Part shown: positions 1-13,398 of the stretch, piece by piece | Numbering within the stretch: position 1 is the first letter of the stretch | Layout: the number at the start of each line of letters is the position of its first letter | Assembly (NCBI GenBank): GCA_023265355.1 | Contig: JAHFTZ010000010.1 | Location: 1,441-14,838, forward strand | Reading direction: 5' to 3' | Source: Terriglobus sp. | GTDB lineage: Bacteria > Acidobacteriota > Terriglobia > Terriglobales > Acidobacteriaceae | DNA length: 13,398 bases | Translations under genes and position numbers: made by a program | The notes under the pieces: generated by a model | Told to the model about the DNA's origin: nothing | Databases searched by the model: none | What the model saw: the letters and a program-made list of their open reading frames with translations, nothing else

Positions 1-660
1 AAAAACCAGCGACCCACGTGTGGCGAGATAAAGAACCCGTCCCGTCGAAGGCGGCTTAATATTCGTCTTCGTCAGGGTAAAGCGCTGGGTAGAGGGGCTA
101 ACCATCGTATCGAGCACCAATTGTGCACGCTCCGCACTCTCGCTTGCCGCGGAAAGCGCCGCAGCCTGGGTTCCTACCTTCTCCCGTAAACCGTCACGTT
201 CCTTGTAGAGGGACAAGCTAAAGACAGCCACGGCCGCCGCCGTTGCCCAACCCACCCACGGAAAGACCAGACTAAACAAACCGCGTCCAGGTTCATCGAA
301 TCTGTCCTCTGGGGCGGAGCCATCCTGCACGGTTTTAACAGAGTCGCTTTCGTGAGAACGGAAGATCTGTGCCGGCGCTGCCGTCTGACGTTCCACGTTG
401 GTGTCGAAGGCTGCAAACGGAACCGCCTTCTTCTCGCGGGCGACCTGTTTCAGTAATCTCTGGCGTGCGGTGGCTGGGGGCTCATGTGCTTCGGCGCTCA
501 GAGCAAAGGCGGCAAGGTCGCCGCTGGTGCGTGCAAGTTCTTCGCGTGCCTCGGCTGACGTCACCAGGAAAGCCTCTACAGCGCGCATTTCTTCCGGTTC
601 CAGAAGCTGCATGGCATACAGCGCCAGGTCATCGGAGGTAAATTCTCTGCGGTTTCCCAT
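1..660 (-). CDS. RskA-type anti-sigma factor (C-terminus cut by window edge)
   Basis: Membrane-anchored anti-sigma factor that probably holds the ECF sigma factor encoded just upstream. The reverse complement of 660 down to 1 is open for 220 codons without a stop, so the C-terminus is missing. Residues 1-75 form a helical cytoplasmic region (start MGNRREFTSDDLALYAMQLL, then LEPEEMRAVEAFL), typical of the anti-sigma N-terminal domain that binds sigma2/sigma4. It lacks a ZAS-type HxxxCxxC motif and has no cysteine in the visible part. A single membrane segment lies at about residues 128-153 (LFSLVFPWVGWATAAAAVAVF). The rest would be extracytoplasmic, with a short helical stretch followed by the beginning of an RskA-like domain (visible end VLYLATRGSLVF). 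Its ATG shares one base with the sigma-factor TGA (TGATG), so the two are probably translationally coupled; AAAGG lies about 10 nt before the ATG. The order sigma then RskA-like protein is the standard SigK/RskA arrangement. The inducing signal is not visible. Confidence 0.85.
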   Translation of the reverse strand, partial: MGNRREFTSDDLALYAMQLLEPEEMRAVEAFLVTSAEAREELARTSGDLAAFALSAEAHEPPATARQRLLKQVAREKKAVPFAAFDTNVERQTAAPAQIFRSHESDSVKTVQDGSAPEDRFDEPGRGLFSLVFPWVGWATAAAVAVFSLSLYKERDGLREKVGTQAAALSAASESAERAQLVLDTMVSPSTQRFTLTKTNIKPPSTGRVLYLATRGSLVF

Positions 661-1229
661 CACTGCATAGCCTTTCTCAGCACAATCAGTGCTGCACGTA
701 TTCGCGTCTTCACAGTACCGAGGGGATCCCCGGTTGTCTCCGCAATCTCGGAGTGTGTCAGACCATCGAAGAAGGCCATCTCCAGCGTATTGCGCTGGTC
801 TACCGGGAGCGTGCCGATCAGCGCACGTACCTTTTCCATCATCAGGTTCCGCTGCGAGTCCTCCGCCAGATCGAACTTGGAAGAAAGAATGACATCGTCT
901 ACCGAATCCTGCGGCTTCCGCCTGCGGAGCAAGTCAATCGCCCGGTTGCGCGCCACGACAGCCAGCCAGCCGCCCATGCTTCCACGGTCGCTTGCGAAAC
1001 TGTCGGGATTGCGCCAGATCTGCATGAAAACTTCCTGTAAGACATCCTCGGCTGCTGCCGGATCGCGCAGTACGCGCAGAGCAACGGAATAAACTATCTT
1101 CGAATATCGATCGTACAAGGCCGCCATCGCGCGTTCGTCGCCGCGCTGCACCTGCGACAGGAGAAGGAGATCTTCTCCCATCGGAGGTTTGGGTGGTGGC
1201 ATGTCGTTGTCCCTATAAATAGAACGCAT
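660..1229 (-). CDS. ECF-family RNA polymerase sigma factor (SigK-like)
   Basis: Alternative sigma factor of 189 aa, normal for a two-domain ECF sigma. Region sigma2 spans about residues 33-105, with the core-binding/-10 recognition helix around EDVLQEVFMQIWRN (61-74) and GWLAVVARNRAIDLLRRR following. Sigma4 spans about 132-187, with the helix-turn-helix GLTHSEIAETTGDPLGTVKTR (156-176) for -35 recognition. The linker between them is short and no extra C-terminal domain is present. The protein should be sequestered at the membrane by the downstream anti-sigma factor, whose start overlaps this stop. The start is uncertain: ATG at 1229 has GAGG 9 nt upstream, while ATG at 1202 (MPPPKPP...) has AGGGA 7 nt upstream and leaves both domains intact. 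ECF sigma factors commonly transcribe their own operon, so the divergent gap 1230-1393 may hold its promoter, but I could not identify a clear one. The regulon is unknown. Confidence 0.93.
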   Translation of the reverse strand: MRSIYRDNDMPPPKPPMGEDLLLLSQVQRGDERAMAALYDRYSKIVYSVALRVLRDPAAAEDVLQEVFMQIWRNPDSFASDRGSMGGWLAVVARNRAIDLLRRRKPQDSVDDVILSSKFDLAEDSQRNLMMEKVRALIGTLPVDQRNTLEMAFFDGLTHSEIAETTGDPLGTVKTRIRAALIVLRKAMQ

Positions 1230-1393
1230 CGAAGTCGTCCTCGGATGATACAGCCATCATCTTTTTCCTTACAGAAGGTATTCTTAGCAGTGCATTGGAG
1301 GGCTGAAAGCAGGCATAAGATGCCTCGTTGCGCAACATTCTGCCCATTCGATAATGGGGTAAGCGCAGTGTACCCTCAAGGGAGCACAAGGAG
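1230..1393. promoter_or_regulatory. Divergent intergenic region between sigma factor and tlyA, with three dyads
   Basis: This gap must carry the promoters for the leftward sigma/anti-sigma operon and the rightward tlyA-nadK operon. Three inverted repeats sit close together: GGCAT-aag-ATGCC (1312-1324), the perfect palindrome GTTGCGCAAC (1327-1336), and CCCATT-cgat-AATGGG (1343-1358). They lie 36-82 bp before the tlyA start. They may be operators, or small hairpins in a tlyA leader. I found no convincing sigma70 or ECF -35/-10 pair on either strand. Confidence 0.45.
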
Positions 1394-2215
1394 ATGTTCC
1401 AGCGCTTCAGCCTCATGCCAGTTAACCTCAGACTCGACAAGCTTATGGTGGATCGCGCCCTGGTGCCGTCCCGCGAACGTGCACAGGCGCTTATTCTCGC
1501 AGGCCGTGTCCTCGTCAATGAACAGAAGATCCAGAAGCCCGGCACGTCTGTCGCCGAGGAGTCCACGATCCGCCTTCTGGGTGACGACCTGCGCTACGTC
1601 AGCCGGGGCGGCCTCAAGCTGGAACGCGCGCTGGAATATTGGAAGATCGAAGTTACCGGAATCTCTGCGGTGGACATCGGGGCCTCCACAGGGGGATTTA
1701 CGGATTGCCTCTTGCAGCAGGGCGCTGCCACTGTTCTTGCCGTGGACACAGGGTACGGCCAGATCGCACATAAGCTCCGCGCCGATCCGCGCGTGCGTCT
1801 GATGGAGCGCACCAACGCCCGCAAGCTGGAACCGTCCTCTCTTCTGCGCGAAGCGGTGTCTCCTCCTGTTTTTTTTGCGATGGATGTCTCTTTCATCGGA
1901 GCCTCGCTGATTCTCCCACCTGTCCTCGCTGCTCTCAGTGAGCCGGACCAGCCATGGCAGGGAAGCGGAGTCATCCTTGTAAAGCCTCAGTTTGAAGCAG
2001 GTCGTGAGCACGTCGGGAAAGGCGGGATCGTCCGCGACCCCGCCGCCCATCAGATCGCCATTGAACGCGTCCGTGCGACCGTCTTGGAGCTCGGCGCAAA
2101 GCATACTGATGTGATCGCATCGCCTATTACCGGTATGGAAGGCAATCACGAGTTCCTTCTCTATGTTCGCTTCGATACAGCAGTCGAAGAAGTTACACTG
2201 GACTTGAATGCCTAA
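1394..2215 (+). CDS. tlyA: TlyA-family rRNA (cytidine-2'-O)-methyltransferase
   Basis: Putative SAM-dependent 2'-O-methyltransferase of the TlyA/YqxC family ('hemolysin A' in older annotations). In mycobacteria TlyA modifies cytidines of 16S and 23S rRNA and affects capreomycin sensitivity. The 273 aa match the family length. An S4 RNA-binding domain covers about residues 11-70 (LRLDKLMVDRALVPSRERA...). The RYVSRGGLKLERAL linker follows, then a Rossmann FtsJ-like domain with SAM motif DIGASTGGFTD (94-104), DVSFIGASLILPP (164-176), VKPQFEAGR (196-204) and GNHEFLLY (250-257). Residues K75, D164, K197 and E253 fall where the K-D-K-E catalytic tetrad of the family is expected. The chosen ATG has AAGGGAG (1378-1384) 9 nt upstream; a later in-frame ATG at 1415 starts nearer the S4 domain but has poorer spacing. 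The end overlaps nadK by 8 nt, so the two should be co-translated; tlyA-nadK linkage is common in bacteria. Substrate specificity is inferred from the family. Confidence 0.93.
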   Translation: MFQRFSLMPVNLRLDKLMVDRALVPSRERAQALILAGRVLVNEQKIQKPGTSVAEESTIRLLGDDLRYVSRGGLKLERALEYWKIEVTGISAVDIGASTGGFTDCLLQQGAATVLAVDTGYGQIAHKLRADPRVRLMERTNARKLEPSSLLREAVSPPVFFAMDVSFIGASLILPPVLAALSEPDQPWQGSGVILVKPQFEAGREHVGKGGIVRDPAAHQIAIERVRATVLELGAKHTDVIASPITGMEGNHEFLLYVRFDTAVEEVTLDLNA

Positions 2216-3065
2216 AGTCGCCATCATCTCGAAACCGCAGAAACCTGAACTTGCCACGCTCCTGGCGGAGCTCCTTCTGTGGCTCCGCGAACGTAACTAC
2301 GAAGCCATCCTGGATCCCACGAGTGGCGCGTACCTCGGTATGCACAACTGCTGCGACCGTGCCACCATGCCCGCGCAAAATCCGGAGCTGGTCATTGTTC
2401 TCGGTGGAGATGGAACGCTTCTCAGCGCCGCGCGCGCTTTCGCCCGCTACGACGTTCCTATTCTTAGCGTTAACCTTGGCTCGCTTGGATTTCTTACGGA
2501 AGTCCCTCTCTCTGAGCTGTACATTACGCTCAATGGATGGATCAACGGGCAGTGCAGCATCGACGAACGCGCCATGATGCACGCCGAACTCTGGCGCGGC
2601 GGCAAAATCTTTCAGCAGTGGGACGCTCTCAATGACGTGGTCATGTCCAAGGGCGCGATTGCCCGCATGGGCGACTACACCGTTCGGCTCGACGAGCAGC
2701 TCGTAGCCCAGTTCCGCGCCGACGGAATCATCGTCTCCACGCCTACCGGATCCACGGCGTACAACCTCGCCGCTGCCGGTCCAATCGTGATGGCGAGTGT
2801 GAATGCCCTGATCGTCACACCGATCTGTCCCCACCTGCTCACGATCCGCCCCATCGTCGTTCCCGGAGACGCGGAAATTTACGTCGCCGTGGAAGGTATC
2901 GCCGACCAGACCTTCCTCACCGTCGATGGGCAGGAAGCAGTGGAACTCCAACTCAACGACGCACTTCGGTGTCGACGCTCACAGTACAGCGTGCGAATGA
3001 TCCGTCTTGGCGAACATGGCCTCTTCAGCGTCCTGCGCTCGAAGCTCAAATGGGGCCAGCGCTAA
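2208..3065 (+). CDS. nadK: NAD kinase (NAD+ 2'-phosphotransferase)
   Basis: Cytosolic enzyme that phosphorylates NAD+ to NADP+ using ATP (or polyphosphate in some family members). It is the only known route to NADP and is normally essential. The 285 aa are the usual length for a bacterial NadK. Diagnostic motifs are intact: GGDGT (66-70) with the conserved catalytic Asp, NLGSLGFLTE (89-98), LNDV (141-144), DGIIVSTPTGSTAYNLAAAG (172-191) and TPICPH (204-209). The C-terminus ends with the usual VDGQ-containing strand region (FLTVDGQEAVEL). The ATG lies inside the last codons of tlyA, giving an 8-nt overlap, which supports translational coupling rather than a separate promoter. No rho-independent terminator is evident after the stop. 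Nothing suggests loss of function. Confidence 0.97.
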   Translation: MPKVAIISKPQKPELATLLAELLLWLRERNYEAILDPTSGAYLGMHNCCDRATMPAQNPELVIVLGGDGTLLSAARAFARYDVPILSVNLGSLGFLTEVPLSELYITLNGWINGQCSIDERAMMHAELWRGGKIFQQWDALNDVVMSKGAIARMGDYTVRLDEQLVAQFRADGIIVSTPTGSTAYNLAAAGPIVMASVNALIVTPICPHLLTIRPIVVPGDAEIYVAVEGIADQTFLTVDGQEAVELQLNDALRCRRSQYSVRMIRLGEHGLFSVLRSKLKWGQR

Positions 3066-3245
3066 AGCCTTTTCGATCCGTTCCCCATCGATTATTTGTC
3101 ATTCCGTAGCGCAACAGAGGAATCTGCTGTTTCCTTACGCCCATTTACCTGTTGCTTTCCCAGCACATTTACCTGTTGCTTTCCCAGTAGAGCTGTGACA
3201 TTCTCCTGTTGGCAAACAAAAGAAGCGCGCACGGGACGGGATCAC
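3066..3245 (+). promoter_or_regulatory. Intergenic region upstream of the padR-ADOP operon
   Basis: The largest gene-free gap in the window. It holds a tandem repeat (3142-3187, described separately) and a degenerate third copy at 3199-3213. A weak sigma70-like pair can be drawn, TTGCTT (3176-3181) and CATTCT (3199-3204) with 17-bp spacing; it overlaps the second repeat, but the -10 match is poor. GGGA at 3233-3236 (9 nt before the ATG) or 3238-3241 may serve as the padR ribosome site. PadR proteins commonly repress their own operon, so an operator is expected here, though I do not see the classical ATGT-N8-ACAT form. Confidence 0.4.
3142..3187. repeat. Two-copy direct repeat, 24-bp period, upstream of padR
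   Basis: Positions 3142-3163 are repeated exactly at 3166-3187, sharing the core TTACCTGTTGCTTTCCCAG. The copies are joined by a 2-bp spacer, giving a 24-bp period. A third, partial copy at 3199-3213 (CATTCTCCTGTTGGC) matches 11 of 15 positions. The location just ahead of a regulator gene suggests a regulatory repeat, but a chance tandem duplication would look the same. Confidence 0.8.
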
Positions 3246-3593
3246 ATGCGACAGAAGAAGGATGTTCAGCAGGGAACATTGGCCCTGATGGTTCTGAAGA
3301 CCCTCGATGTACTGGGACCGCTGCACGGGTATGGCATCGCTCGGCGCATCGAGCAGATCAGCGGAGACCTGCTCTCCGTCAACCAGGGGACGCTCTATCC
3401 CCTTATGCTCAGGCTGGAGCAGGAGGGTGCGATCGCTTCGGAGTGGGGCCCTTCGGAGAGCAATCGCCGCGCACGCTTCTACAGCTTGACTCGTGTGGGA
3501 AGAAAGCTATTGGAGGCTGAAAAGCGCGATTGGGAGCAGACGGCAGCCATCATCGCGCGCTTCCTGGAAGCGAAGGCGGAGGACTTGGGATGA
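3246..3593 (+). CDS. PadR-family transcriptional regulator (acidobacterial ADOP-associated type)
   Basis: Small winged-helix DNA-binding protein of 115 aa, the size of the PadR-s1/acidobacterial PadR subfamily. The PadR domain covers about residues 10-90: QQGTLALMVLKTLDVLGPLHGYGIARRIEQ (8-37) is the conserved N-terminal helix and HGYGIA turn, LSVNQGTLYPLMLRLEQEG (43-61) is the recognition helix with its characteristic GTLYP motif, and RRARFYSLTRVGRKLLEAE (74-92) is the wing plus start of the dimerisation helix. The start at 3246 is chosen because the domain begins right after it; upstream in-frame codons would only translate the repeat region. The gene ends with an ATGA overlap with the ADOP permease gene, the standard operon for this pair in Acidobacteria. 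It probably represses its own operon; the ligand is unknown. Confidence 0.95.
   Translation: MRQKKDVQQGTLALMVLKTLDVLGPLHGYGIARRIEQISGDLLSVNQGTLYPLMLRLEQEGAIASEWGPSESNRRARFYSLTRVGRKLLEAEKRDWEQTAAIIARFLEAKAEDLG
3578..3583 (+). promoter_or_regulatory. Ribosome binding site setting the ADOP start
   Basis: GGAGGA lies 6 nt before the ATG at 3590. It selects that ATG, whose ATGA overlaps the padR stop codon, over an in-frame ATG at 3530 that would run through padR. Confidence 0.75.
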
Positions 3594-6268
3594 GATCTCT
3601 GCATCGGTTCTTCGCACGCCTTCTTAACTTCGTAACAAGACGACGCGACGATGAGCGCCTGAGAGAAGAGATGAAGTCTCATCTGGCCAGCCAGACAGAA
3701 GACTACCTGCGCTCTGGCATGACTCCCGAGGAAGCCTATCGACAAGCCCGCCTGAAGTTCGGTGCCATGGAGGCGATTCGAGAAGATTATCGCGCGGAAG
3801 AAGCATTGCCGCTTATGGAGAGTCTTCTGCTGGACGTTCGTTATGCACTTCGCGTACTTCGGACGTCTCCTACGTTTACGATCGTCGCTTTAGCCACGCT
3901 GATGCTGGGGATCGGCGCAAACGTCGTAGTCTTCGGCGTGCTGAATGAAGTTCTACTGCATCCGCTGGAGGTAAGAGACCCGCAAAGCCTGTATCAGGTA
4001 CGCCATAAGCAGTGGATGGTTGGAAGGTTACTGACCACTTCGTACCCCACCTTCGAGGATCTTCAGCGGCGCAACACTACCTTCAGCGGAATGGCCGGGA
4101 TGTATGGCTACTCCGGTGCCAAATTACTCTGGCGTAACTCCGTGCGGAAGGTCTCCGGCTATGAAGTGACCGGCAATTATTTCGATGTGCTGGGAGTGCA
4201 GCCGGAGGTGGGTAGGTTCTTCCATGAGGCGGATGAGCATGGTCCGAACTCGGCACCCTTTGTCGTTTTGAGCAATGCTCTGTGGCGAAGCACGTTTCAT
4301 GCGGATTCAGGCGTGGTCGGAACAACCGTAGAACTCGACAAGCATCCGTTTACGGTGATTGGCGTTGCATCCGCTCAGTTCCACGGCACGGAGAAGTTCC
4401 GTTGGCCTGACTACTGGATTCCCATGATGAACGAGCAGCAACTGGAAAACTATGATTACCTGCATAGCCGGACCTACATCAACGTAACGGTCCTTGGCCG
4501 ACTGAAGCCCGGCGTGACTCCGCAGCAGGCGACGGAAAATCTGAATGCGATCACGGCCGAGCTGGCGAAGGAGTATCCAGAGACCGACGACGGAGAGCCG
4601 CTGCGTCTGATCCATCCGGGCCTCATCGGAGATGAAGGCGATGTGATTCGCGGATTTCTGTACAGCGTCAGCTTGCTTGCGCTTCTGGTATTGGCGGCAG
4701 CGTGCGCCAATCTTGCCACGCTCTTTGCGGCGCGTGCAGCGGATCGCAGCCGCGAACTCGCGCTTCGTGTGGCCCTTGGATCGAGTCGGCGGCGGCTGGT
4801 GCGGCAACTCCTCACCGAGGCACTCGTAGTCTCGCTGTTAGGCGGAGCGGCGGGACTCGCGAGCGCGTACCTGTTGCTGGGCGTGTTGAATCGCTCTTCT
4901 GCTTTCGATGGCAGTATGACCGTCAGTCTCGATCTGCGTGTTTATTTTGTAGGCCTCGCGTTGACGCTTGTAAGCGCACTGCTCTTTGGCCTGGCGCCAG
5001 CGCGGCAGGCGTGGCAGAGCAGTCCGATGCAGGCAATGAAGGGTGGACAGGCAGAGTCGAAGAATCTCCATCGGTTTACCTTGCGAGACCTTTTGCTGGG
5101 GGTACAGATTGCAATCTGCACACTGCTGGTGACGGCTTCCCTGGTCGCGATACGCGGCATGATCCAGGCCCTGCATACCCCGCTGGGGATACACCCAGAG
5201 GGCGCAATGCTCGCCTATATGGATCTCAGCTCTACGGAGCAGGCAGACAGCACGGTGCCTGAGAACGCGTCAATCCACGACGCTACGCTTGAAAAAGAGA
5301 AGGCGGTCCTTGAGGCCGCGCGAAACATCCCGGGTGTCACAGCCGTCGGCATGATCAACCAGACGCCCATGACGGGCGGTCTGCATGGTGTCCCGATCTT
5401 TCGGCCGGGTACAACAGAGTTCAAACTGAAGAACTCCGCACTGGCACCGTACGTGTTTTCGATGTCGCCCGGATACCTCGACACTGCTGGCACACGCCTG
5501 CTCCGTGGACGGGATGCTTCGTGGCACGACACGACGGATACGCCCCATGTGGCTATTGTGAATGAGACCTTCGCTCGGAAGATGTGGGACAGAACACCAG
5601 CCATCGGACAACGCTTCCTTCTGAGGGGCCAACTGACAGAGGTCGTAGGCGTGGCGGAGGACGGCAAGTATCACGACTTGACCGAATCTCCGCAGCCGGT
5701 TGTCTATCTACCGCAGTCGCAGAGCGACGGCGGAGAGATGATCTTTGTGGTGCGTTCAGAGCGTACGCCGAAAGAGATGACGGCAGCGTTGCAACAGAGG
5801 CTGAGCAACATCGCGCCCAATGCGCCCATCAAGGTATTGAGCTGGTCGGATCAGCTTGCAGGCGAGTTGCTTCCGGCGCGTGCGGCCACCGTCGCACTCG
5901 GTGTCATGGGACTTCTGGCTGCGATGCTGGCGGTAACGGGCATCTTCGGCATGGCGGCGTACAACGTGAGCCGTCGAAAGAAAGAGTTTGGCATTCGTAT
6001 GGCCTTGGGCGCGCGCAAGGCGCAGGTGATAAACGCCGCGGTGGGGCGTCCCATGGTCCTGCTCGGCGTGGGATCGGTGCTGGGTCTGCTTGCAGGAATT
6101 TCCGCGAGCCGTCTCCTGGGGCAGATCGTGTATCAGGCGAATCCCAAAAACCCTGCGGTCGTGGGTGGAGTCGTATTCACCATGGCTCTGCTTGGGCTCG
6201 TCGCCTCCGCCGTTCCAGCTCGGAGAGCGCTTGCCGTCGATCCATCCGAGCTTATGCGGGAAGAGTGA
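3590..6268 (+). CDS. Acidobacterial duplicated orphan permease (ADOP), FtsX/MacB type
   Basis: Large inner-membrane permease of 892 aa related to MacB/FtsX, with two permease halves and no ATPase encoded next to it. A soluble N-terminal extension (residues 1-80, with SGMTPEEAYRQARLKFGAME) matches the 'permease prefix' domain of this family. Half one has TM1 at about 94-116 (TFTIVALATLMLGIGANVVV), a periplasmic MacB-like core domain at about 120-350, and three TMs at about 354-380, 404-432 and 449-468, with the FtsX motif RELALRVALGSSRRRL (388-403). Half two repeats this: TM about 498-522, a core domain about 530-755, and TMs about 766-790, 820-846 and 858-876, with EFGIRMALGARK (799-810). The C-terminus VPARRALAVDPSELMREE is typical. 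MacB-like proteins act as mechanotransmitters for efflux or lipoprotein/peptide export; the role of ADOPs is unproven and the partner ATPase, if any, lies elsewhere. The gene is in an operon with padR. Identification is firm, function is not. Confidence 0.94.
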   Translation: MRSLHRFFARLLNFVTRRRDDERLREEMKSHLASQTEDYLRSGMTPEEAYRQARLKFGAMEAIREDYRAEEALPLMESLLLDVRYALRVLRTSPTFTIVALATLMLGIGANVVVFGVLNEVLLHPLEVRDPQSLYQVRHKQWMVGRLLTTSYPTFEDLQRRNTTFSGMAGMYGYSGAKLLWRNSVRKVSGYEVTGNYFDVLGVQPEVGRFFHEADEHGPNSAPFVVLSNALWRSTFHADSGVVGTTVELDKHPFTVIGVASAQFHGTEKFRWPDYWIPMMNEQQLENYDYLHSRTYINVTVLGRLKPGVTPQQATENLNAITAELAKEYPETDDGEPLRLIHPGLIGDEGDVIRGFLYSVSLLALLVLAAACANLATLFAARAADRSRELALRVALGSSRRRLVRQLLTEALVVSLLGGAAGLASAYLLLGVLNRSSAFDGSMTVSLDLRVYFVGLALTLVSALLFGLAPARQAWQSSPMQAMKGGQAESKNLHRFTLRDLLLGVQIAICTLLVTASLVAIRGMIQALHTPLGIHPEGAMLAYMDLSSTEQADSTVPENASIHDATLEKEKAVLEAARNIPGVTAVGMINQTPMTGGLHGVPIFRPGTTEFKLKNSALAPYVFSMSPGYLDTAGTRLLRGRDASWHDTTDTPHVAIVNETFARKMWDRTPAIGQRFLLRGQLTEVVGVAEDGKYHDLTESPQPVVYLPQSQSDGGEMIFVVRSERTPKEMTAALQQRLSNIAPNAPIKVLSWSDQLAGELLPARAATVALGVMGLLAAMLAVTGIFGMAAYNVSRRKKEFGIRMALGARKAQVINAAVGRPMVLLGVGSVLGLLAGISASRLLGQIVYQANPKNPAVVGGVVFTMALLGLVASAVPARRALAVDPSELMREE

Positions 6269-6302
6269 TCTCCCCGTGCCACAGTATGATGAAGTCAACC
6301 GT

Positions 6303-7106
6303 ATGAAGAAAATCAATACGAAGGTGCAAAGCGCCGCCAATCCCATGCTCATCGAGGAAAGGCGGCAACATGTTCTTGCCACGATCCAACGGGAAGGGCG
6401 TGTATTGGTCTCAGAGATCGCCGACGAACTGAATATCTCGCGCATTACGATCCGAAAGGATCTGGATCATCTGGAGGCCAGAGGTCTGGTACAGCGCACG
6501 CACGGTGGAGCGCTGGCGCCGCAGGTGGGATCTTTGCTCGATCCTTCACTGAAAGAAAAAGAGCAGCATCAGCTTCAACAAAAGCAGAAAATCGCTTCTG
6601 CTGCGGTGAAGCTGGTGGAAGAGGGGCAGTGCGTTCTTCTGGACTCCGGTACTACCACCACAGCCATCGCTCGCGCGCTGAGAGGATTTTCCAAGCTGAC
6701 GGTGGTCACGAACGCTGTTAATATCGCAGCCGAACTTACTGGCACGAACTTCGATGTGATCCTGACCGGCGGCATGTTAAGGAAAAATTCATTCTCTCTC
6801 GTGGGTCCTCAGGCAGAAGATGTGCTCCGGGAGATCAACGCCGACATCTTATTTCTGGGTGTGGACGGCTTCGATCCGCGCATCGGTGTGACGACACCGA
6901 ATGTGCTGGAATCGCGCGTGAATCGCGCCATGGTGAAGGCGGCACGAAAGATTGTCGCGGTTTGCGACTCCACAAAGTTTACGCACCGCAGCTTTGCTCT
7001 GATCGTTCCGCCGTCCTCGATTCACACGGTCATTACGGATTCCCGCATCTCCGCTGAAGATGCGCAGACGCTGCGCAATGGCGGCATTGAATTGATTTTG
7101 GTCTAG
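6303..7106 (+). CDS. DeoR-family transcriptional regulator (AgaR/GatR-like)
   Basis: Sugar-phosphate-responsive repressor of 267 aa, typical DeoR length. The N-terminal helix-turn-helix covers about residues 15-72 (MLIEERRQHVLATIQREG, then VSEIADELNISRITIRKDLDHLEARG and the wing RTHGGAL). The C-terminal DeoRC sensor domain (about 90-250) has the sugar-phosphate-binding landmarks DSGTTTTAIARAL (114-126), TNAVNIAAEL (136-145), LTGGMLR (154-160), FLGVDGFDPRIGVTTPN (184-200) and CDSTKF (221-226). The gene starts 34 nt after the ADOP stop with no clear promoter or strong SD between. A GTG at 6276 and an ATG at 6345 are alternative in-frame starts. It converges on the sugar kinase gene with only 7 bp between the stop codons. 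Position next to kinase, AgaS-like and GatZ-like genes makes that cluster its probable regulon, with a sugar phosphate as inducer; this is inference. Confidence 0.93.
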   Translation: MKKINTKVQSAANPMLIEERRQHVLATIQREGRVLVSEIADELNISRITIRKDLDHLEARGLVQRTHGGALAPQVGSLLDPSLKEKEQHQLQQKQKIASAAVKLVEEGQCVLLDSGTTTTAIARALRGFSKLTVVTNAVNIAAELTGTNFDVILTGGMLRKNSFSLVGPQAEDVLREINADILFLGVDGFDPRIGVTTPNVLESRVNRAMVKAARKIVAVCDSTKFTHRSFALIVPPSSIHTVITDSRISAEDAQTLRNGGIELILV

Positions 7107-7113
7107 TCTGAGC

Positions 7114-8061
7114 TTAGCCCAGAACGGGCGTCTCGCTGTGTGCAGCGAAGAAGCTCTGCAAGAGTTCTGCATCGCGATAGGCTTCCGTTCCGCCCGGCCG
7201 AAGCGTAGAAAACGCAGCCGTGAGATTCCCCATTGCGGCACATTCCGGCAGAGGCTTCTTCGCCAGATACCCTTTGAGAAAGCCAGCGTTGAAGCTGTCC
7301 CCGGCACCGATGGTATCGACGGGCACAACGCGCGGCGGCGGAACGGCCCAGCGCTGCTCACCGGTCTGCACGATCGAACCCCGCTGACCGCACTTCACCG
7401 CTACTACGCCGACGCGCTTCGCCAGACGGGCGATGGCCTCGTCGAGATCGTCGGTTCGGGCCATACGTCTGGCTTCGTCTTCGTTGGGAAGAAGCACATC
7501 GACGCAGTCCAACATCTCGTCCAGAGGAACGCCCCATTCGTCCTCTGGATCGTCGTTCGTGTCGAGCGAGATGGTCAGACCCTTACGCGAGAGCTCGCGA
7601 CAGAGTGCAGGCAGGCCGGGCTGCAAGCCCTTCTGCAGGAAGAGGGAAGAGACGTGGAAGTGACGGCTGTCTGCAAGGAAGTCGAGATCGATATCATCCA
7701 CTGTCATCTCAGCCATGGTGCCGAGATACGTGAGGATATGCCGGGTTGCACCATGATGCAGCAGGAGCGTCACCCCGGTCTGCGAGCCTGCGGCGAAGGT
7801 CGTACGCGATACATCCACGCCAGCCGCACGTAACCGTTCGAGCGCGATCTCTCCCAGCGGATCGCTTCCGACGCGCGTGACGAATCCGACTCTGATGCCG
7901 AGAACGGACAGATTGTGCGCAAGAATTGCGGACGAGCTTCCAAGTGTCAATCTGAAGTCGTTCGCGAGCAGCTCCCGATCCACAGGCATCTGTTCCGCAA
8001 GGCCATAGAGAATCAGATCGAGATTAATCTCTCCCGCAATCGTTACATCGAACATGCTCAT
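7114..8061 (-). CDS. PfkB-family carbohydrate kinase
   Basis: ATP-dependent sugar kinase of the ribokinase/PfkB fold, 315 aa (usual 300-330). The N-terminal half starts with the strand MFDVTIAGEINLDLILYG. The region normally carrying the GG..N substrate motif reads LTLGSSSAILAHNLSVLG (39-56), so the usual second glycine is replaced by serine. The C-terminal PfkB signature DTIGAGDSFNAGF (249-261) is intact, with D255 as the expected catalytic base in the GAGD anion hole; LLPNEDEARR (190-199) is the conserved NxxE region. The specific sugar cannot be read from sequence. In context it could phosphorylate the imported free sugar (the cluster has an MFS porter, not a PTS) or be a tagatose-6-phosphate kinase. 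The start at 8061 has GAAGG about 7 nt upstream and lies 10 nt after the agaS-like stop, so it is the last gene of that operon. Confidence 0.93.
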   Translation of the reverse strand: MSMFDVTIAGEINLDLILYGLAEQMPVDRELLANDFRLTLGSSSAILAHNLSVLGIRVGFVTRVGSDPLGEIALERLRAAGVDVSRTTFAAGSQTGVTLLLHHGATRHILTYLGTMAEMTVDDIDLDFLADSRHFHVSSLFLQKGLQPGLPALCRELSRKGLTISLDTNDDPEDEWGVPLDEMLDCVDVLLPNEDEARRMARTDDLDEAIARLAKRVGVVAVKCGQRGSIVQTGEQRWAVPPPRVVPVDTIGAGDSFNAGFLKGYLAKKPLPECAAMGNLTAAFSTLRPGGTEAYRDAELLQSFFAAHSETPVLG

Positions 8062-8071
8062 CGACAGGCCT

Positions 8072-9118
8072 TCAAATGGTGACGACGCGGTTCAGATTTC
8101 TTGGGTTGTCCGGATCGAGACCCTTCTCCAAACCGCGATAGCTGCCGAGCAGCTGTCCCCATACAACATAGACGATGATGCGCGCGAGTTCTGGTACCGG
8201 CAGGCTGAGTTCGATGAGCAGATCTGCCGTCTTGCGCAGCGTATCCGAAGCAGAGTTCGCCACGGCGAAGATCGTTCCGCCAAGTTCCTTCATCTCCACC
8301 AGAACGGAGATCTCGCTCTCGTAGCCCGACTCGGAGATGAGGCCGCCAACCATGGCTCGACCGTCCACGATGGACTTCGGGCCGTGGCGAAACTCAAGCG
8401 TATGGAAGAACTGCGCATAGCTCGAAGAGGACTCCATCACCTTCAGCGCAGTCTCGGATGCGATCGCATAAAGAGCTCCCTGGCCGAGGAAAGCAAAATC
8501 CTCAAAGTCCGATTTGGCGAACTGCTCCACCTGCGGTCCATATTCCTTCAGCAGACGCTCTGTATGCTTCGGAAGCGTGCGCAGGGCAAAGAGGAACGCA
8601 TCGTCGCCTGCGATAGATGCAGCCAGATACTGAAGTGCCATGAGCATCGACGTAAACGAAGAGGTCATCACGGTGCTTTCTTCCAGCACGGGCAGCTTGA
8701 GTGTACGGGGGCTGAGAAGTTCGAGCTCGCGGCCATCGCACGTAACGGCAAGGAACTCCGTAGAGCGGCTCTGAAGATACTCAGCCACGTGCAGCACTTC
8801 CGAGGTATGCCCTGAACGCGAGATGAGGACGGGGAAATAGTCGGCAGTATCGTTCGGAAACACAAGAGAGGGGAAGAGCAGAATTTCAGAGGCAGGTACG
8901 GCCCGCGTCTTGACGCCGAGCAGCGTGGTGAAGCTGGCCGCTGCGGCCTGCGCAAGATAGTAGCTGGTGCCGCAACCTACGAAGACCCATTCGGTCTGGC
9001 GAGGATCCTTGCTCTGGATCAGCGACGTGAGGTCGAAGTTCTCCAACATGTCCAGGCAGTCTTGCCAGACCTTAGGCTGAGCATAAATCTCTGAAATTGT
9101 TTTTACGTCCTTACGCAT
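8072..9118 (-). CDS. agaS: SIS-domain sugar-phosphate isomerase/deaminase (AgaS-like)
   Basis: 348-aa protein with two SIS domains (about residues 40-165 and 205-345), as in AgaS and the isomerase half of GlmS. E. coli AgaS deaminates and isomerises galactosamine 6-phosphate to tagatose 6-phosphate plus ammonia. Sequence landmarks are VGCGTSYYLA (47-56), the phosphate-binding LISRSGHTSE (98-107), EESTVMTSSFTSMLMAL (147-162), ASETALKVME (220-229), EFRHGPKS (242-249) and a C-terminal GLDPDNPRNLNRVV (333-346), the last two being very typical of AgaS/GlmS-like enzymes. It lacks the glutaminase domain of GlmS, so synthesis of glucosamine 6-phosphate is unlikely. The start has AGG 6 nt upstream (AAGGATCAGGTGCAAG before ATG). 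It is followed 10 nt later by the PfkB kinase. The upstream 160-bp gap suggests its own promoter. The substrate could also be another amino sugar or a glycosylamine/fructosamine-type phosphate; family-level call strong, substrate moderate. Confidence 0.9.
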   Translation of the reverse strand: MRKDVKTISEIYAQPKVWQDCLDMLENFDLTSLIQSKDPRQTEWVFVGCGTSYYLAQAAAASFTTLLGVKTRAVPASEILLFPSLVFPNDTADYFPVLISRSGHTSEVLHVAEYLQSRSTEFLAVTCDGRELELLSPRTLKLPVLEESTVMTSSFTSMLMALQYLAASIAGDDAFLFALRTLPKHTERLLKEYGPQVEQFAKSDFEDFAFLGQGALYAIASETALKVMESSSSYAQFFHTLEFRHGPKSIVDGRAMVGGLISESGYESEISVLVEMKELGGTIFAVANSASDTLRKTADLLIELSLPVPELARIIVYVVWGQLLGSYRGLEKGLDPDNPRNLNRVVTI

Positions 9119-9278
9119 CTTGCACCTGATCCTTCAAGATTCAACGCAGCGAAGCGGCCCTATTCCCTTGATTTGGAGCTCTCTGCAACTTGTATCTATT
9201 GATTTATCATAGCATCCATAACGAAATATAAAGATATGAAAAATAACTTCATCCGGAAGTAAGTGTCGGTTGACCTTA
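9119..9278 (-). promoter_or_regulatory. AT-rich intergenic region, probable promoter/operator of the agaS-like and kinase genes
   Basis: This gap is clearly more AT-rich than its flanks, especially 9195-9250. On the minus strand a TATGAT (9211-9206) resembles a -10 box, but the -35 at 17 bp spacing (TCTTTA) is poor. On the same strand ATTTCGTTATGG (9227-9216) contains a TTTCG core of the kind found in several DeoR-family operators. A small dyad ACTTC-atccg-GAAGT occupies 9246-9260, close behind the gatZ-like stop. All of these are candidates only. Confidence 0.4.
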
Positions 9279-10574
9279 TCAAAAATTACTCTCTTTGTTG
9301 GAAGGTGGGAAACAGGCTGCAGCATAAGGTTTGAGCGCTTCCCGGATGCTGTAGAGGACAAGATCGACCGGCTTCTTCGAAAGCTTCCCCGCGCGGACTG
9401 CCTTGTAGTGTTCTGGCATCTGCGCACTCAAAAGTGTCTCTGGTATCGAGAGAGAACTCAGATTCGATATCAACAGGTCGGTCGCCTTCTGCACTGCAGC
9501 ATGTCCCCAGTAATAACGCATGCGGTCGCTATAGCTGTACCGGCGCAGGAGCCGCTGCTCTTCCGGGTTGCCGTGATAATGGCTTACCCAATCTTTCGGA
9601 TCGGAGAGCATCGCTTCCTCTACCACGGAGCGTAACGAAGAGCGATGCTCCGGCGCGACAAGTTCGTCTTCGATGGCTGCCAGAGCAAAGAGAGCTTCGC
9701 GCATGGCAAACGTCAGCGCGGGTCCTACCTTCAGAATGGCAAATCCATCAGCCACAAGATCGCGATAGGCTGCGGGCTTCTGATAATCCGTGGAGTGCGC
9801 TTCGAAGACAAGGCCGTCTTCTGAATCAAGAAGGGACTTCAATTCGTCCGCCTTGGACGGCACATAATCCACAACGCTGTCGTGATTGAACTCGACCCCT
9901 GGCTGCACGACCAGACCCACCACGCGGGGCCAGGCCTCCTCCAAACCCCGAAGTGCAAAGATCTCGCGGTGAATCCGAAGCGTCGTCTCGGCCGCCATCC
10001 GCGTCGTTACTGCAAGCTCCGTAAGAGCCTCTGTTGCGCCGCCCGGAATCGGCACCTCTGTCCCGATGACGTAAACGGGCTTTTCCCCCGATACGGCCGC
10101 CTCCGCTGCCTGGCATAGCTGAACGGCACGTTCCGCAACCACTTCATCGGCGAGGGGTGCCGTCTCTCCTGCGCATGCCATGCTGGCGTCAAGATGCAGC
10201 TTTGTGAAACCAGCAGCGGCATACTCGGCCATCATCTCTTTGGAGAGCGCCATGGCCTCTTCCGCTGTACGCTTCTGCCAAGCATTGGGGCCGAGGTGAT
10301 CTCCACCAAAGATGATTCGATCCACAGAGAGCCCTTCCTCTTCAGCAATCGCAACCACCATCCGGCGAAAGTCCGCGGGACGCATACCTGTGTATCCCCC
10401 GTGCTGGTTGACCTGGTTCGACGTCGCTTCAACGAGCAATGGACTTTCGTCCGGCAGAGCCTGTTGAATGGCAGCGCGGATCACCCACGGGTGCGCGGAA
10501 CACACGGAGTAGATGCCTCGCGCGCTGTTTGGTTTCTTTCGATTCGCGAGCAGACTCTGCAGTAGATTGAACAT
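9279..10574 (-). CDS. gatZ: GatZ/KbaZ-family protein (tagatose-1,6-bisphosphate aldolase subunit-like)
   Basis: 431-aa TIM-barrel protein of the GatZ/KbaZ family (about 420-430 aa). Conserved blocks include EATSNQVNQHGGYTGM (49-64), FGGDHLGPNAW (89-99), KLHLDASM (125-132), GTEVPIPGGA (171-180), QPGVEFNHD (224-232), FEAHSTDYQ (257-265), LKVGPALTFAMREALFAL (281-298) and YSYSDRMRYYW (346-356). In enteric bacteria GatZ and KbaZ are non-catalytic partners needed for activity and stability of the aldolases GatY and KbaY. Some stand-alone family members have been reported to epimerise fructose 6-phosphate/tagatose 6-phosphate at C4. No GatY/KbaY gene is visible here, so a catalytic stand-alone role is possible. 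AAAGGG lies about 8 nt before the ATG. It is the first gene of the minus-strand set, 160 bp ahead of the agaS-like gene and divergent from the hydrolase gene. Family call strong; activity open. Confidence 0.92.
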   Translation of the reverse strand: MFNLLQSLLANRKKPNSARGIYSVCSAHPWVIRAAIQQALPDESPLLVEATSNQVNQHGGYTGMRPADFRRMVVAIAEEEGLSVDRIIFGGDHLGPNAWQKRTAEEAMALSKEMMAEYAAAGFTKLHLDASMACAGETAPLADEVVAERAVQLCQAAEAAVSGEKPVYVIGTEVPIPGGATEALTELAVTTRMAAETTLRIHREIFALRGLEEAWPRVVGLVVQPGVEFNHDSVVDYVPSKADELKSLLDSEDGLVFEAHSTDYQKPAAYRDLVADGFAILKVGPALTFAMREALFALAAIEDELVAPEHRSSLRSVVEEAMLSDPKDWVSHYHGNPEEQRLLRRYSYSDRMRYYWGHAAVQKATDLLISNLSSLSIPETLLSAQMPEHYKAVRAGKLSKKPVDLVLYSIREALKPYAAACFPPSNKESNF

Positions 10575-10715
10575 GGAATTGCCCTTTCCGTCGGGTCCCG
10601 TAAACAGTCAGACGGCCCAAAACTCTTTCCCGGCGTGGGTTACAATTATCGCCTAAACAAACAAAAGCGAAAGAAAACGATACAAAGCTTATAGCATGGC
10701 CCGGAGGTGGCATCG
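10575..10715. promoter_or_regulatory. Divergent promoter region between gatZ-like and hydrolase genes, with an A-tract candidate operator
   Basis: This gap must drive both the leftward gatZ-like gene and the rightward hydrolase-porter pair. A strongly purine-rich run at 10655-10680 (AAACAAACAAAAGCGAAAG...) reads on the minus strand as phased T-tracts around a TTTCGC core. This resembles the T-tract/TTTCG style of AgaR-type operators without matching a consensus exactly. GATAAT (minus strand, 10650-10645) is a fair -10 for the leftward gene, but no good -35 accompanies it. The shared DeoR regulator could control both directions from here; this is inference. Confidence 0.4.
10703..10707 (+). 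promoter_or_regulatory. Shine-Dalgarno site deciding the hydrolase start
   Basis: A perfect GGAGG lies 8 nt before the ATG at 10716. It overlaps the in-frame GTG at 10707, which therefore cannot be the initiation codon used with this site. Confidence 0.8.
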
Positions 10716-11774
10716 ATGGACACGACGGACAAAGACAAATTTGTAGACATGGTCGGCGCAACGGCTGAAGTAGACCTCAGGCTCAGCGACTTCCATCCCC
10801 GCTCTTCTCTGCAGACGACAGTACACGCCATCGAGCGCGGCAAATTTCCGGTCATCGATTATCACAATCATCTCGACTCCACCGACCCCAGGGAAGTTCT
10901 GTCCATCATGGACCAGTGCGGCGTGGAGCACGTGGTCAATATCACCATGCAGGTCGGCCAGAAGGCGCTCGATATCATGGATCGCTTTCGCAATGCGGCA
11001 CCGGACCGCTTCTCCAGCATTGGTTGGATGGACTGGAGCGGAGTGGAAGGCTCGGATTTTGTGAAGGTCACCCTCGACCGCCTGCACCGCATGATCGATC
11101 ACGGCGCATGCGGCATCAAGTTCTGGAAGGACTTCGGCCTGACTCTCCGTGACACTGAAAACAGGCTCATTCGGATTGACGATGATCGCTTCGCCCCGAT
11201 CTTCGAAGCGTCTGGAGATCTCGGTCTTCCCGTCATGTTCCACACCGCCGATCCCAGCGCTTTCTTTGAGCCCATCGATGCCTACAACGAACGATACGAG
11301 GAACTGGCAGCGCATCCCGATTGGGGATTCTCCACTTCGCCCGTTTCAAAACGGGAGTTGTTGGAGCAGAGGAACCGGGTTATCGCGCGCCATCCTGCGA
11401 CGACCTTTGTCGGCGCACACTGCGCGGAGAGCGGGGAAGATCTCGAATACCTCGCGCAGCAACTCGACCGGCTTCCCAATCTGCAGATCGATATCAGCGC
11501 GCGAACGCCAGAACTGGGTCGACAGCCTTATAGCGCCCGCGCCTTTTTCCTGAAATATTGTGATCGGATCCTCTTTGGAACCGATCTTCTGCCAGATACT
11601 GAGATGTATCGACTCTACTTCCGTTTTCTTGAAACGGCGGATGAGTATTTTGAGTACCCATCGCACGCATCACGGCAGGGAAGATGGAATATCTATGGGA
11701 TCTTCCTGCCGGACGATGTCCTGCGTAAGATCTATCGAGAGAACGCTCTCAAGCTTATGCCGCACCTGCGTTAA
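10716..11774 (+). CDS. Amidohydrolase-superfamily TIM-barrel metal-dependent hydrolase (PF04909-like)
   Basis: 352-aa probable metal-dependent hydrolase, decarboxylase or lactonase of the amidohydrolase-2 type. After a roughly 43-residue N-terminal extension, the first barrel strand carries the metal motif D48-Y-H50-N-H52. Other expected metal or active-site positions are K135 in GACGIKFWK (129-137), H176 in LPVMFHTADP (171-180), H235 in FVGAHCAES (231-239) and D290 in ILFGTDLLPD (285-294), the strand-8 aspartate. The set H-x-H, H, H, D is complete, so the enzyme should be active. It is not of the NagA/AgaA deacetylase family, so its role in an aminosugar-like cluster is not obvious: deacetylation, lactone hydrolysis or another step are all possible. 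GGAGG at 10703-10707 selects this ATG; a GTG nine bases earlier is rejected. The MFS porter starts 52 nt after the stop with no terminator between, suggesting co-transcription. Confidence 0.88.
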   Translation: MDTTDKDKFVDMVGATAEVDLRLSDFHPRSSLQTTVHAIERGKFPVIDYHNHLDSTDPREVLSIMDQCGVEHVVNITMQVGQKALDIMDRFRNAAPDRFSSIGWMDWSGVEGSDFVKVTLDRLHRMIDHGACGIKFWKDFGLTLRDTENRLIRIDDDRFAPIFEASGDLGLPVMFHTADPSAFFEPIDAYNERYEELAAHPDWGFSTSPVSKRELLEQRNRVIARHPATTFVGAHCAESGEDLEYLAQQLDRLPNLQIDISARTPELGRQPYSARAFFLKYCDRILFGTDLLPDTEMYRLYFRFLETADEYFEYPSHASRQGRWNIYGIFLPDDVLRKIYRENALKLMPHLR

Positions 11775-11813
11775 GTTACGTTGTCCACACTGCTCTAAGT
11801 AGAATCCAAGCCC

Positions 11814-11817
11814 GAGG
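11814..11817 (+). promoter_or_regulatory. Ribosome binding site for a TTG-started porter gene
   Basis: GAGG, part of the palindrome GAGGCCTC (11814-11821), lies 9 nt before the TTG at 11827. The reading frame is closed upstream by TAG at 11800 and contains no ATG or GTG before the first membrane segment, so TTG 11827 (or TTG 11839) must initiate. Confidence 0.6.
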
Positions 11818-11826
11818 CCTCCTAGA

Positions 11827-13398
11827 TTGCCGAATAAATTGAATCCTGTTTTGTACAACCGCTATCTCATCGCGGTTGCTGGCCTGGGCGGACTTCTGTA
11901 CGGCATCGATGTGGGCATTATTGCGGCGGCGCTTCTCTATCTGGGAAAGACGGTGAACCTCTCTGTCGGACAAACCTCGACGATCGTAGCGGCTGTGCTC
12001 GGCGGCAGCATGGTCTCTTCGCTCATTGCAGGGTTTCTGGCGGACTGGGTTGGACGCAAGAAGATGATGATCGTCAGCGGCCTGCTCTTCGTCGCGAGCG
12101 TAGGCATCATCGTCATCTCGCAGGGCTTTGTACCTCTTCTGATGGGGCGGCTTCTGCAGGGCATCAGCGGCGGCGTGATCGCCGTGGTCGTACCTCTTTA
12201 TCTTGCGGAGTGCTTGAGCGCGGATGAGCGAGGCAAAGGCTCGGCCATCTTCCAGTTCATGCTGACGGTCGGCATCGTCGTCGCGGCGGTCACCGGCCTC
12301 TACTACACGCGCACTGCGGAAGCAGCTATTGCCGCGGCCAATGGCAACGCCGTCCTCATCCACGCCGCGCAGGACCATGCTTGGCGCGGTATGTTTTTGT
12401 CCGTGATCTATCCGGGCATCGCGTTCTTCCTGGGCACGTTTTTCCTGAGCGAAACGCCGCGCTGGCTCTTTCGCAAGGGATGTCGCGACGAGGCCATGAC
12501 CTCGCTACGCCGTGCCAACTTCGAAGACGCGGCGCAGCGGCAGATGCGTGAGATGGAAGAATTGAGCGCGGAGAATAAAGCAGCGGACGCCGCAGTGGGC
12601 GCAGTGGGCACGCTGTTGCAGAGGAAGTACGTCATCCCTTTTGTTCTTGCCTGCATGATTCTGGGCCTTAACCAGGCTACGGGAATCAACTCGGTTCTTG
12701 CTTACCTCGTGGTGATTTTGAAGCAGGCAGGCATGACCGCGCAGCACGCCACGGAAGGCGATCTTGCGGTCAAAGTTCTGAACTGCCTCATGACGATCGT
12801 CGCTATCGCCCTGATCGACCGTCGTGGCCGCAAGTTTCTGCTCACCCTGGGTACGGGCGGTATCGTGCTTTCGCTTACCGTCGCCGCGTTTCTCTTCCAC
12901 GGATTTGAAGCCAACCGAACCGACGTCATGCAGCAGGTAGAAGCCGCCAGAACAGGCGACCATCTCACGCTGCCGATGTCTGCCATGCCTTCTACAGACG
13001 GAAAAGCCGCATCGCTTACCGTGCTCTATACCTACGGAGACGGTGACCATATTGCGACGGCACTCACCACGGATCCAGATCCGGTTCTTAAGATCGTGCC
13101 GGAGAAACCGGGCTCGCAACTCATCATCGAGCGCGCTTCCTTTGGAGTTCTCCCGACCGAAAAAATGGGTTGGTGGATCACAACCTGCGTTGCGTTCTTC
13201 ATCGCGTTCTACTCGGTCGGCCCGGGCGTTGTCGTTTGGCTGACGCTCTCTGAACTGATGCCGACACGCATCCGCTCCGCGGGCATGGGAATCGCCCTGC
13301 TGCTGAACCAGGGCGCATCCACGCTGATTGCGGGCGTCTTCCTACCCGTGATCGGCCGCTACGGATACTTCGCGATGTTTGCCTTCTGGGCACTCTGC
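11827..13398 (+). CDS. MFS sugar porter-family transporter (C-terminus cut by window edge)
   Basis: Inner-membrane sugar:H+ symporter-like protein; 524 codons are visible and the frame is open to the edge, which falls in TM12. Sugar-porter signatures are present: GGLLYGIDVG in TM1 (21-30), DWVGRKK (73-79) in loop 2-3, GRLLQGISGGV (107-117), VPLYLAE (122-128), SETPRWLF (208-215), the sugar-binding NQATGIN (282-288) in TM7, DRRGRK (331-336) in loop 8-9 and LSELMPTRIRSAGMG (474-488) around TM10-11. Two insertions are unusual: about 25 residues between TM5 and TM6 (161-186) and about 85 residues between TM9 and TM10 (360-446), both on the predicted periplasmic side. Initiation is at TTG 11827, with GAGG 9 nt upstream; no ATG or GTG lies between the upstream stop and TM1. 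It follows the hydrolase gene by 52 nt and probably imports the sugar handled by the cluster. The substrate is not deducible from sequence. Confidence 0.92.
   Translation, partial: MPNKLNPVLYNRYLIAVAGLGGLLYGIDVGIIAAALLYLGKTVNLSVGQTSTIVAAVLGGSMVSSLIAGFLADWVGRKKMMIVSGLLFVASVGIIVISQGFVPLLMGRLLQGISGGVIAVVVPLYLAECLSADERGKGSAIFQFMLTVGIVVAAVTGLYYTRTAEAAIAAANGNAVLIHAAQDHAWRGMFLSVIYPGIAFFLGTFFLSETPRWLFRKGCRDEAMTSLRRANFEDAAQRQMREMEELSAENKAADAAVGAVGTLLQRKYVIPFVLACMILGLNQATGINSVLAYLVVILKQAGMTAQHATEGDLAVKVLNCLMTIVAIALIDRRGRKFLLTLGTGGIVLSLTVAAFLFHGFEANRTDVMQQVEAARTGDHLTLPMSAMPSTDGKAASLTVLYTYGDGDHIATALTTDPDPVLKIVPEKPGSQLIIERASFGVLPTEKMGWWITTCVAFFIAFYSVGPGVVVWLTLSELMPTRIRSAGMGIALLLNQGASTLIAGVFLPVIGRYGYFAMFAFWALC

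Follow-up and report, generated by a model that had tools for sequence, protein, structure and literature searches.

The window analysed here is a stretch of 13,398 bases from Terriglobus sp. (bases 1441-14838 of contig C429, in a genome of 480 contigs that is 70.7% complete). It carries at 6300-13398 six open reading frames with Pfam scores above the curated cut-offs, and together these probably form a pathway for N-acetylgalactosamine (GalNAc) and galactosamine that does without a phosphotransferase system (PTS) and in which GatZ would end the route at fructose-6-phosphate. The substrate, the order of the steps and the activities of the kinase, the SIS enzyme and the PF04909 amidohydrolase, here called Amh2, are what we infer. 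Outer glycosidases, in relatives of families GH109, GH20 and GH35 and a clan GH-D-like protein, would release the sugar and a porter of the major facilitator superfamily (MFS) would import GalNAc. Amh2 would remove the acetyl group, most likely ahead of phosphorylation, the PfkB kinase would phosphorylate galactosamine at C6, and the SIS enzyme would deaminate and isomerise galactosamine-6-phosphate to tagatose-6-phosphate. GatZ, working without GatY, would then epimerise tagatose-6-phosphate at C4 to fructose-6-phosphate through a zinc-dependent retro-aldol/aldol step, so that neither tagatose-6-phosphate kinase nor tagatose-bisphosphate aldolase would be needed. An AgaR-type repressor, as in the Aga pathway, would control the gene set. 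All six genes named in an original prediction made from the DNA are borne out as open frames.

The reading of GatZ as a stand-alone 4-epimerase that replaces the kinase and the aldolase is well supported and is the simplest, if not the sole, one. Residues C25, E49, D92, H93, E173, H260 and K282 align with C20, E44, D87, H88, E171, H257 and K279 of E. coli GatZ (7/7). In the available text of PMC11907403, His88, Glu171 and His257 are the zinc ligands of the E. coli enzyme and Asp87 is catalytic, with Lys279, Glu44 and Cys20 also given. The same text reports GatZ and KbaZ as tagatose-6-phosphate/fructose-6-phosphate 4-epimerases of E. coli, active in vivo, and proposes the retro-aldol/aldol mechanism for GatZ. 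It describes a pfkA zwf strain producing tagatose from glucose in which deletion of gatZ abolished production; plasmid-borne gatZ alone gave no rescue, gatZ or kbaZ together with the phosphatase gene hxpA did, and fbaA, gatY and kbaY, each with hxpA, are reported not to restore production. As the active-site residues are kept and E. coli GatZ reportedly interconverts the two sugar phosphates, the protein of the window could take the place of both enzymes, and it need not be the Z subunit of an absent aldolase.

To place the cluster among its relatives, 45 GatZ-anchored loci, 136 Amh2 loci and 150 genomes of the order were surveyed. Comparing gene order, as had been suggested, shows the grouping to be conserved: PfkB is present in 35 of the 45 GatZ loci, SIS in 32, and Amh2 and DeoR in 30 each, and because of these counts the grouping is not due to chance. 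This neighbourhood, like the genes themselves, the active site of GatZ and the alternative endings found in other genomes, comes from the present analysis. The closest relative examined (G060) has an identical gene order, with cluster proteins 88-98% identical, and a GH20 hexosaminidase gene immediately left of the regulator. It had been supposed that missing genes may lie just past the right edge of the window. The edge is indeed the end of the contig, at 13398, where the porter gene is cut; in G060, however, the MFS gene is followed by genes for methionine sulfoxide reductase, PadR and a MacB/FtsX permease and, on the opposite strand, an ABC (ATP-binding cassette) ATPase, and no aldolase or deacetylase gene was found directly after the cluster in a 20 kb stretch whose two terminal frames were left unannotated. 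Similar clusters are found in Granulicella (among others in the cultured Granulicella rosea, L123, and Granulicella aggregans, L122), Terracidiphilus and Edaphobacter; that of Terriglobus albidus lacks GatZ. The variant is present in Acidobacteria, as predicted, but is not confined to them, since Amh2 homologues also lie beside SIS and PfkB genes in metagenome-assembled genomes (MAGs) of Chloroflexi and in one from Firmicutes. One locus (L115, G076:C1:1488001-1504000) appears to be a decaying copy, with GatZ and SIS fragments, c7 (described below) in pieces and the DeoR, Amh2 and MFS frames open.

Table 1. Features of the cluster, in positions of the window. Scores are in bits, with the curated cut-off after the slash or in brackets.
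Feature	Position	Strand	Support
DeoR-family repressor, AgaR type	6300..7106	+	NF040755 AgaR 266.7 (cut-off 260); DeoRC 177.9/31.8
Sugar kinase of the PfkB family, putative 6-kinase for galactosamine (or GalNAc)	7114..8061	-	PF00294 169/25.8
SIS enzyme, GlmD/AgaS-like, proposed galactosamine-6-phosphate deaminase/isomerase giving tagatose-6-phosphate	8072..9118	-	PF01380 80.1/25
GatZ/KbaZ family, proposed stand-alone tagatose-6-phosphate 4-epimerase	9279..10574	-	TIGR02810 624/568.8; GatZ_KbaZ-like 631.4/26.7
Divergent promoter region, GatZ/Amh2	10575..10706		AgaR-operator-like A-rich site 10660-10681, suggestive only
Amh2, PF04909 amidohydrolase, proposed N-acetylgalactosamine deacetylase	10707..11774 (start maybe ATG 10716)	+	Amidohydro_2 83.9/26.4
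MFS sugar porter, cut by contig end	11827..13398	+	PF00083 Sugar_tr 243.5/22.3

The cluster holds neither a GatY/KbaY nor a NagA/AgaA gene, which agrees with the original prediction. The class II aldolase family of GatY/KbaY (PF01116) was not found in the window's own, incomplete genome or in G060. Of the 51 genomes of the order with a full-length GatZ, 38 lack this family, and 11, the window's own incomplete genome included, lack both it and a PF00365 phosphofructokinase. Absence of PF00365 is commoner with GatZ (12/51 against 7/99 genomes, Fisher 0.008); in all, 19 of the 150 genomes (G000, G060, G079 and 16 more) are without this phosphofructokinase, and 12 of the 19 carry GatZ.

Amh2 had been described as an unrelated hydrolase. 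It is instead a conserved partner in the cluster and the leading candidate for the missing GalNAc deacetylase, an assignment that we make tentatively and that comes close to an even call. GH109 or GH20 genes occur in 17 of the 45 GatZ loci, every one of which has a cytoplasmic Amh2, and in none of the 15 that lack a cytoplasmic Amh2. NagA was found in 0/160 neighbourhood loci (tblastn with one NagA query). PF04909 is a family that we take to be grouped with the ACMSD/COG2159 amidohydrolases, and Amh2 shares their PF04909 match, their fold, in a predicted structure with a pLDDT of 90.8, and their HxH, H, H, D metal set; D51, H53, H55, H179, H238 and D293 are invariant in alignments of 29 and 36 sequences. 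The TatD_DNase model scores below its cut-off and no NCBIfam match to the NagA/AgaA family (TIGR00221) was obtained at E 0.001. Searching solved structures with the sequence gave nothing at E 0.001, a profile search gave two weak matches only, and in the fold search NagA was not among the matches listed, which is uninformative. The family is large, with 7772 proteins at E 1e-10 among 8000 candidates scored.

Two further kinds of gene accompany these loci. A protein of about 660 residues, c7 (L051:6232-8250, 15/45 GatZ loci in all), has no Pfam match; its model resembles clan GH-D alpha-galactosidases/alpha-N-acetylgalactosaminidases, with DDGWD and KFDGTGN stretches, and it possibly represents an undescribed glycosidase family. 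Acetyltransferase-like genes (L073:5525-6715, L176:3426-4265, L190:2383-3201 and L161:1670-2569) are NagX-like in Acidobacteria and AAC(3)-like, together with GNAT, in Chloroflexi, with the NagX and AAC(3) models below cut-off; one possible role would be to re-acetylate galactosamine residues.

For the PfkB kinase all NCBIfam models fall below cut-off, the best at 126.8 of 300. Two loci (L186 and L192) encode a PfkB 36-40% identical to that of the window together with a separate LacC-like kinase, which argues against PfkB as the tagatose-6-phosphate kinase, and the window's enzyme is probably not that kinase. In L192 a TnpB (IS605-type) gene (8706-9983) separates the gene of the LacD-like aldolase from that of Amh2. 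The SIS enzyme, predicted to be AgaS-like, belongs to the SIS family but is not a clear AgaS: its nearest models are GlmD (136.6 of 580), GlmS and AgaS (TIGR02815, 108.4 of 529.2), all below cut-off. Two distant SIS types, 25-30% identical, occur in the 45 GatZ loci, the window type in 6 and a type nearest to AgaS in 23, never together; one protein of the latter type scored 276.4 of 529.2 with TIGR02815. AgaS itself is reportedly the galactosamine-6-phosphate deaminase of E. coli.

Loci without GatZ suggest how else the route may end. A LacC-like kinase occurs in 13 of the 136 Amh2 loci, three of them with a LacD-like aldolase, and never alongside GatZ. As these genes appear where GatZ is lacking, they point to a galacto-configured substrate and, with the conserved neighbours, support the predicted variant pathway, with non-orthologous replacements, whose substrate would be an amino sugar or galacto-configured sugar. 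Three genomes of the same genus that lack GatZ (G032, G037 and G047) have their sole PF00365 phosphofructokinase next to Amh2 (L082:8712-9899, L083 and L086); that of L082 is of the pyrophosphate type (PRK14072 model above cut-off) and the other two are 92% and 87% identical. This may be a third ending, because E. coli PfkA is reported to make tagatose-1,6-bisphosphate (PMC10101011, in the part available). In L061 and L064 the phosphofructokinase gene and GatZ are present together, so the two are not exclusive.

Several observations weigh against this pathway. The negative association between GatZ and PF01116 that would have served as proof that GatZ acts alone was not found (Fisher 0.70). A LacD-like class I aldolase, not found in the window's own, incomplete genome, is encoded in 20 of 22 genomes tested, G060 included, at about 460 bits. 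We therefore reject the notion that there is no aldolase at all, and, because it matches so widely, the LacD-like model by which L186 and L192 stand out lacks specificity for tagatose; the LacC-like proteins, likewise, pass the 1-PFK/hexose kinase model and not the LacC equivalog. GatZ is optional: of the 59 genomes that have a close Amh2, 21 hold no full-length copy (two of these have a fragment), and as the Amh2-SIS-PfkB-DeoR core persists in GatZ-less genomes, GatZ is rejected as an obligatory part. SIS and PfkB are both missing from the stretch covered in ten of the 45 GatZ loci; 35 of the 136 Amh2 loci have no SIS, PfkB or DeoR, partly through short contigs, and some of the more distant loci place Amh2 among other genes. 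The loci and genomes are related and not independent, tests were picked after the data had been seen and p values are uncorrected. Lastly, where a reaction is named for a fold neighbour of Amh2, the enzyme is mainly a decarboxylase or a hydrolase of lactones or C-C bonds, and Amh2 need not be a deacetylase, because the window's own genome encodes a NagA above cut-off on another contig (C292) and in E. coli NagA and AgaA reportedly substitute for each other.

This last point opens the best of the alternatives, namely that the same GalNAc and galactosamine pathway is served by the distant NagA while Amh2 carries out another step, such as hydrolysis of a lactone or of an unusual galactosamine substituent. 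NagA above cut-off is present in 134 of the 150 genomes, and Amh2 also occurs elsewhere without the core, in L164 directly after a Gfo/Idh/MocA oxidoreductase gene. L061 and L064 have a neighbouring gene for a glucose/sorbosone dehydrogenase-like protein, of a kind able to make lactones, but such a gene is found in only 2/41 loci of one neighbour survey, and NagA stays out of the neighbourhoods whereas Amh2 goes with N-acetylhexosaminidase genes. We consider this alternative unlikely, though still the nearest to deacetylation by Amh2.

It is improbable that tagatose-6-phosphate is instead phosphorylated and then split by the LacD-like class I aldolase, encoded elsewhere and aided by GatZ. Such aid would be the classical role of GatZ/KbaZ, reportedly needed for full activity of GatY and KbaY in E. 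coli, yet helpers have been described for the class II family that most GatZ genomes lack, a LacC-like kinase and GatZ occur together in 0/136 Amh2 loci, and GatZ has a complete active site and a reported epimerase activity of its own. A substrate that is not an amino sugar is no easier to credit. The pair of fructoselysine kinase and deglycase, a PfkB and a SIS protein, is a precedent for Amadori compounds, and the PfkB of the window gives 97.9 bits with the fructoselysine 6-kinase model (cut-off 247) and 85.3 with that for tagatose kinase (cut-off 420), both below cut-off. Permeases of the amino-acid type neighbour 10/45 GatZ loci, and a hexitol/tagatose route could draw on the precedent of Agrobacterium, where GatZ served growth on galactitol (cited in the available text of PMC11907403). 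Against this, hexitol dehydrogenase is not among the recurring families in the part of the neighbours annotated, the SIS enzyme is nearest to hexosamine-6-phosphate deaminases, GlmS and AgaS, the neighbours include GH109, GH20 and NagX-like genes, and the regulator is of the AgaR type.

The intergenic site listed in Table 1 is a hint, and a hint only, of an AgaR-like operator. It agrees at 18 of 22 positions with an E. coli AgaR consensus and was equalled by 0/60 and 1/60 resampled sequences; 45 of 126 upstream regions score at least 17/22, many no better than resampled sequence. By eye, the MFS porter has an additional hydrophilic segment of about 85 residues (residues ~360-445), beyond the first Sugar_tr match (16-357). 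The left part of the window (1-6268) encodes an extracytoplasmic function sigma factor followed by a further frame on the same strand, an FtsJ/S4 methyltransferase, NAD kinase, a PadR regulator and a MacB/FtsX permease, with no visible link to the cluster.

The E. coli aga/kba regulon for GalNAc and galactosamine shares with the cluster an AgaR-type regulator, a SIS enzyme (in the cluster a putative deaminase), a KbaZ-family protein and, on the proposed reading, the tagatose-6-phosphate route. Here, however, PTS, AgaA and KbaY genes are missing, a kinase and an MFS porter stand in their place, the SIS enzyme is nearer to GlmD and a PF04909 protein is added. In the Shewanella pathway (AgaP, AgaK, AgaA-II and AgaS) a permease and a kinase likewise replace the PTS, according to the available part of PMC2996990, whereas the present cluster has the PF04909 protein instead of AgaA-II and GatZ is proposed to end the route. 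In the Agrobacterium galactitol route GatZ is also thought to turn tagatose-6-phosphate into fructose-6-phosphate (cited in the same part of PMC11907403); here, in contrast, its gene accompanies that of a putative deaminase of amino sugars and, among relatives, those of N-acetylhexosaminidases.

Among the matches listed, those relatives of Amh2 whose function is known have aromatic or muconate acids, lactones or C-C bonds as their targets, and sugar de-N-acetylation would be new for the ACMSD/COG2159 amidohydrolases. CE4, CE9, CE11, CE14 and CE18 are the de-N-acetylase families of CAZy named in the available text of PMC12017989, and a literature search that covered few subscription journals turned up no PF04909 protein described as a GalNAc deacetylase. 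Somewhat more tentatively than the activity itself, we propose that Amh2 founds a new sugar de-N-acetylase family in the PF04909/ACMSD clan that would act on free GalNAc, ahead of the kinase step, with different transporters matching its cytoplasmic and its exported forms. With a stand-alone GatZ this would make a short route from GalNAc to fructose-6-phosphate (uptake, deacetylase, kinase, deaminase, epimerase) that dispenses with the classical deacetylase, tagatose-6-phosphate kinase and aldolase, spread across Acidobacteria and with Amh2-SIS-PfkB kin in Chloroflexi.

A published gut reconstruction uses agaA as the marker of GalNAc use (PMC5583593, as far as its text was available), a rule that would miss organisms with this cluster. 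In Amh2 the cluster supplies a candidate founder of a new family of deacetylases, and it would allow a better annotation for a gene set of many soil Acidobacteria. Epimerases of the GatZ type are of industrial interest for tagatose production, as the available text of PMC11907403 states. The proteins of the GatZ/KbaZ family have long been classed as helpers of aldolases; with this cluster they gain a natural pathway in which their epimerase activity makes best sense, and the physiological role of that activity becomes testable.

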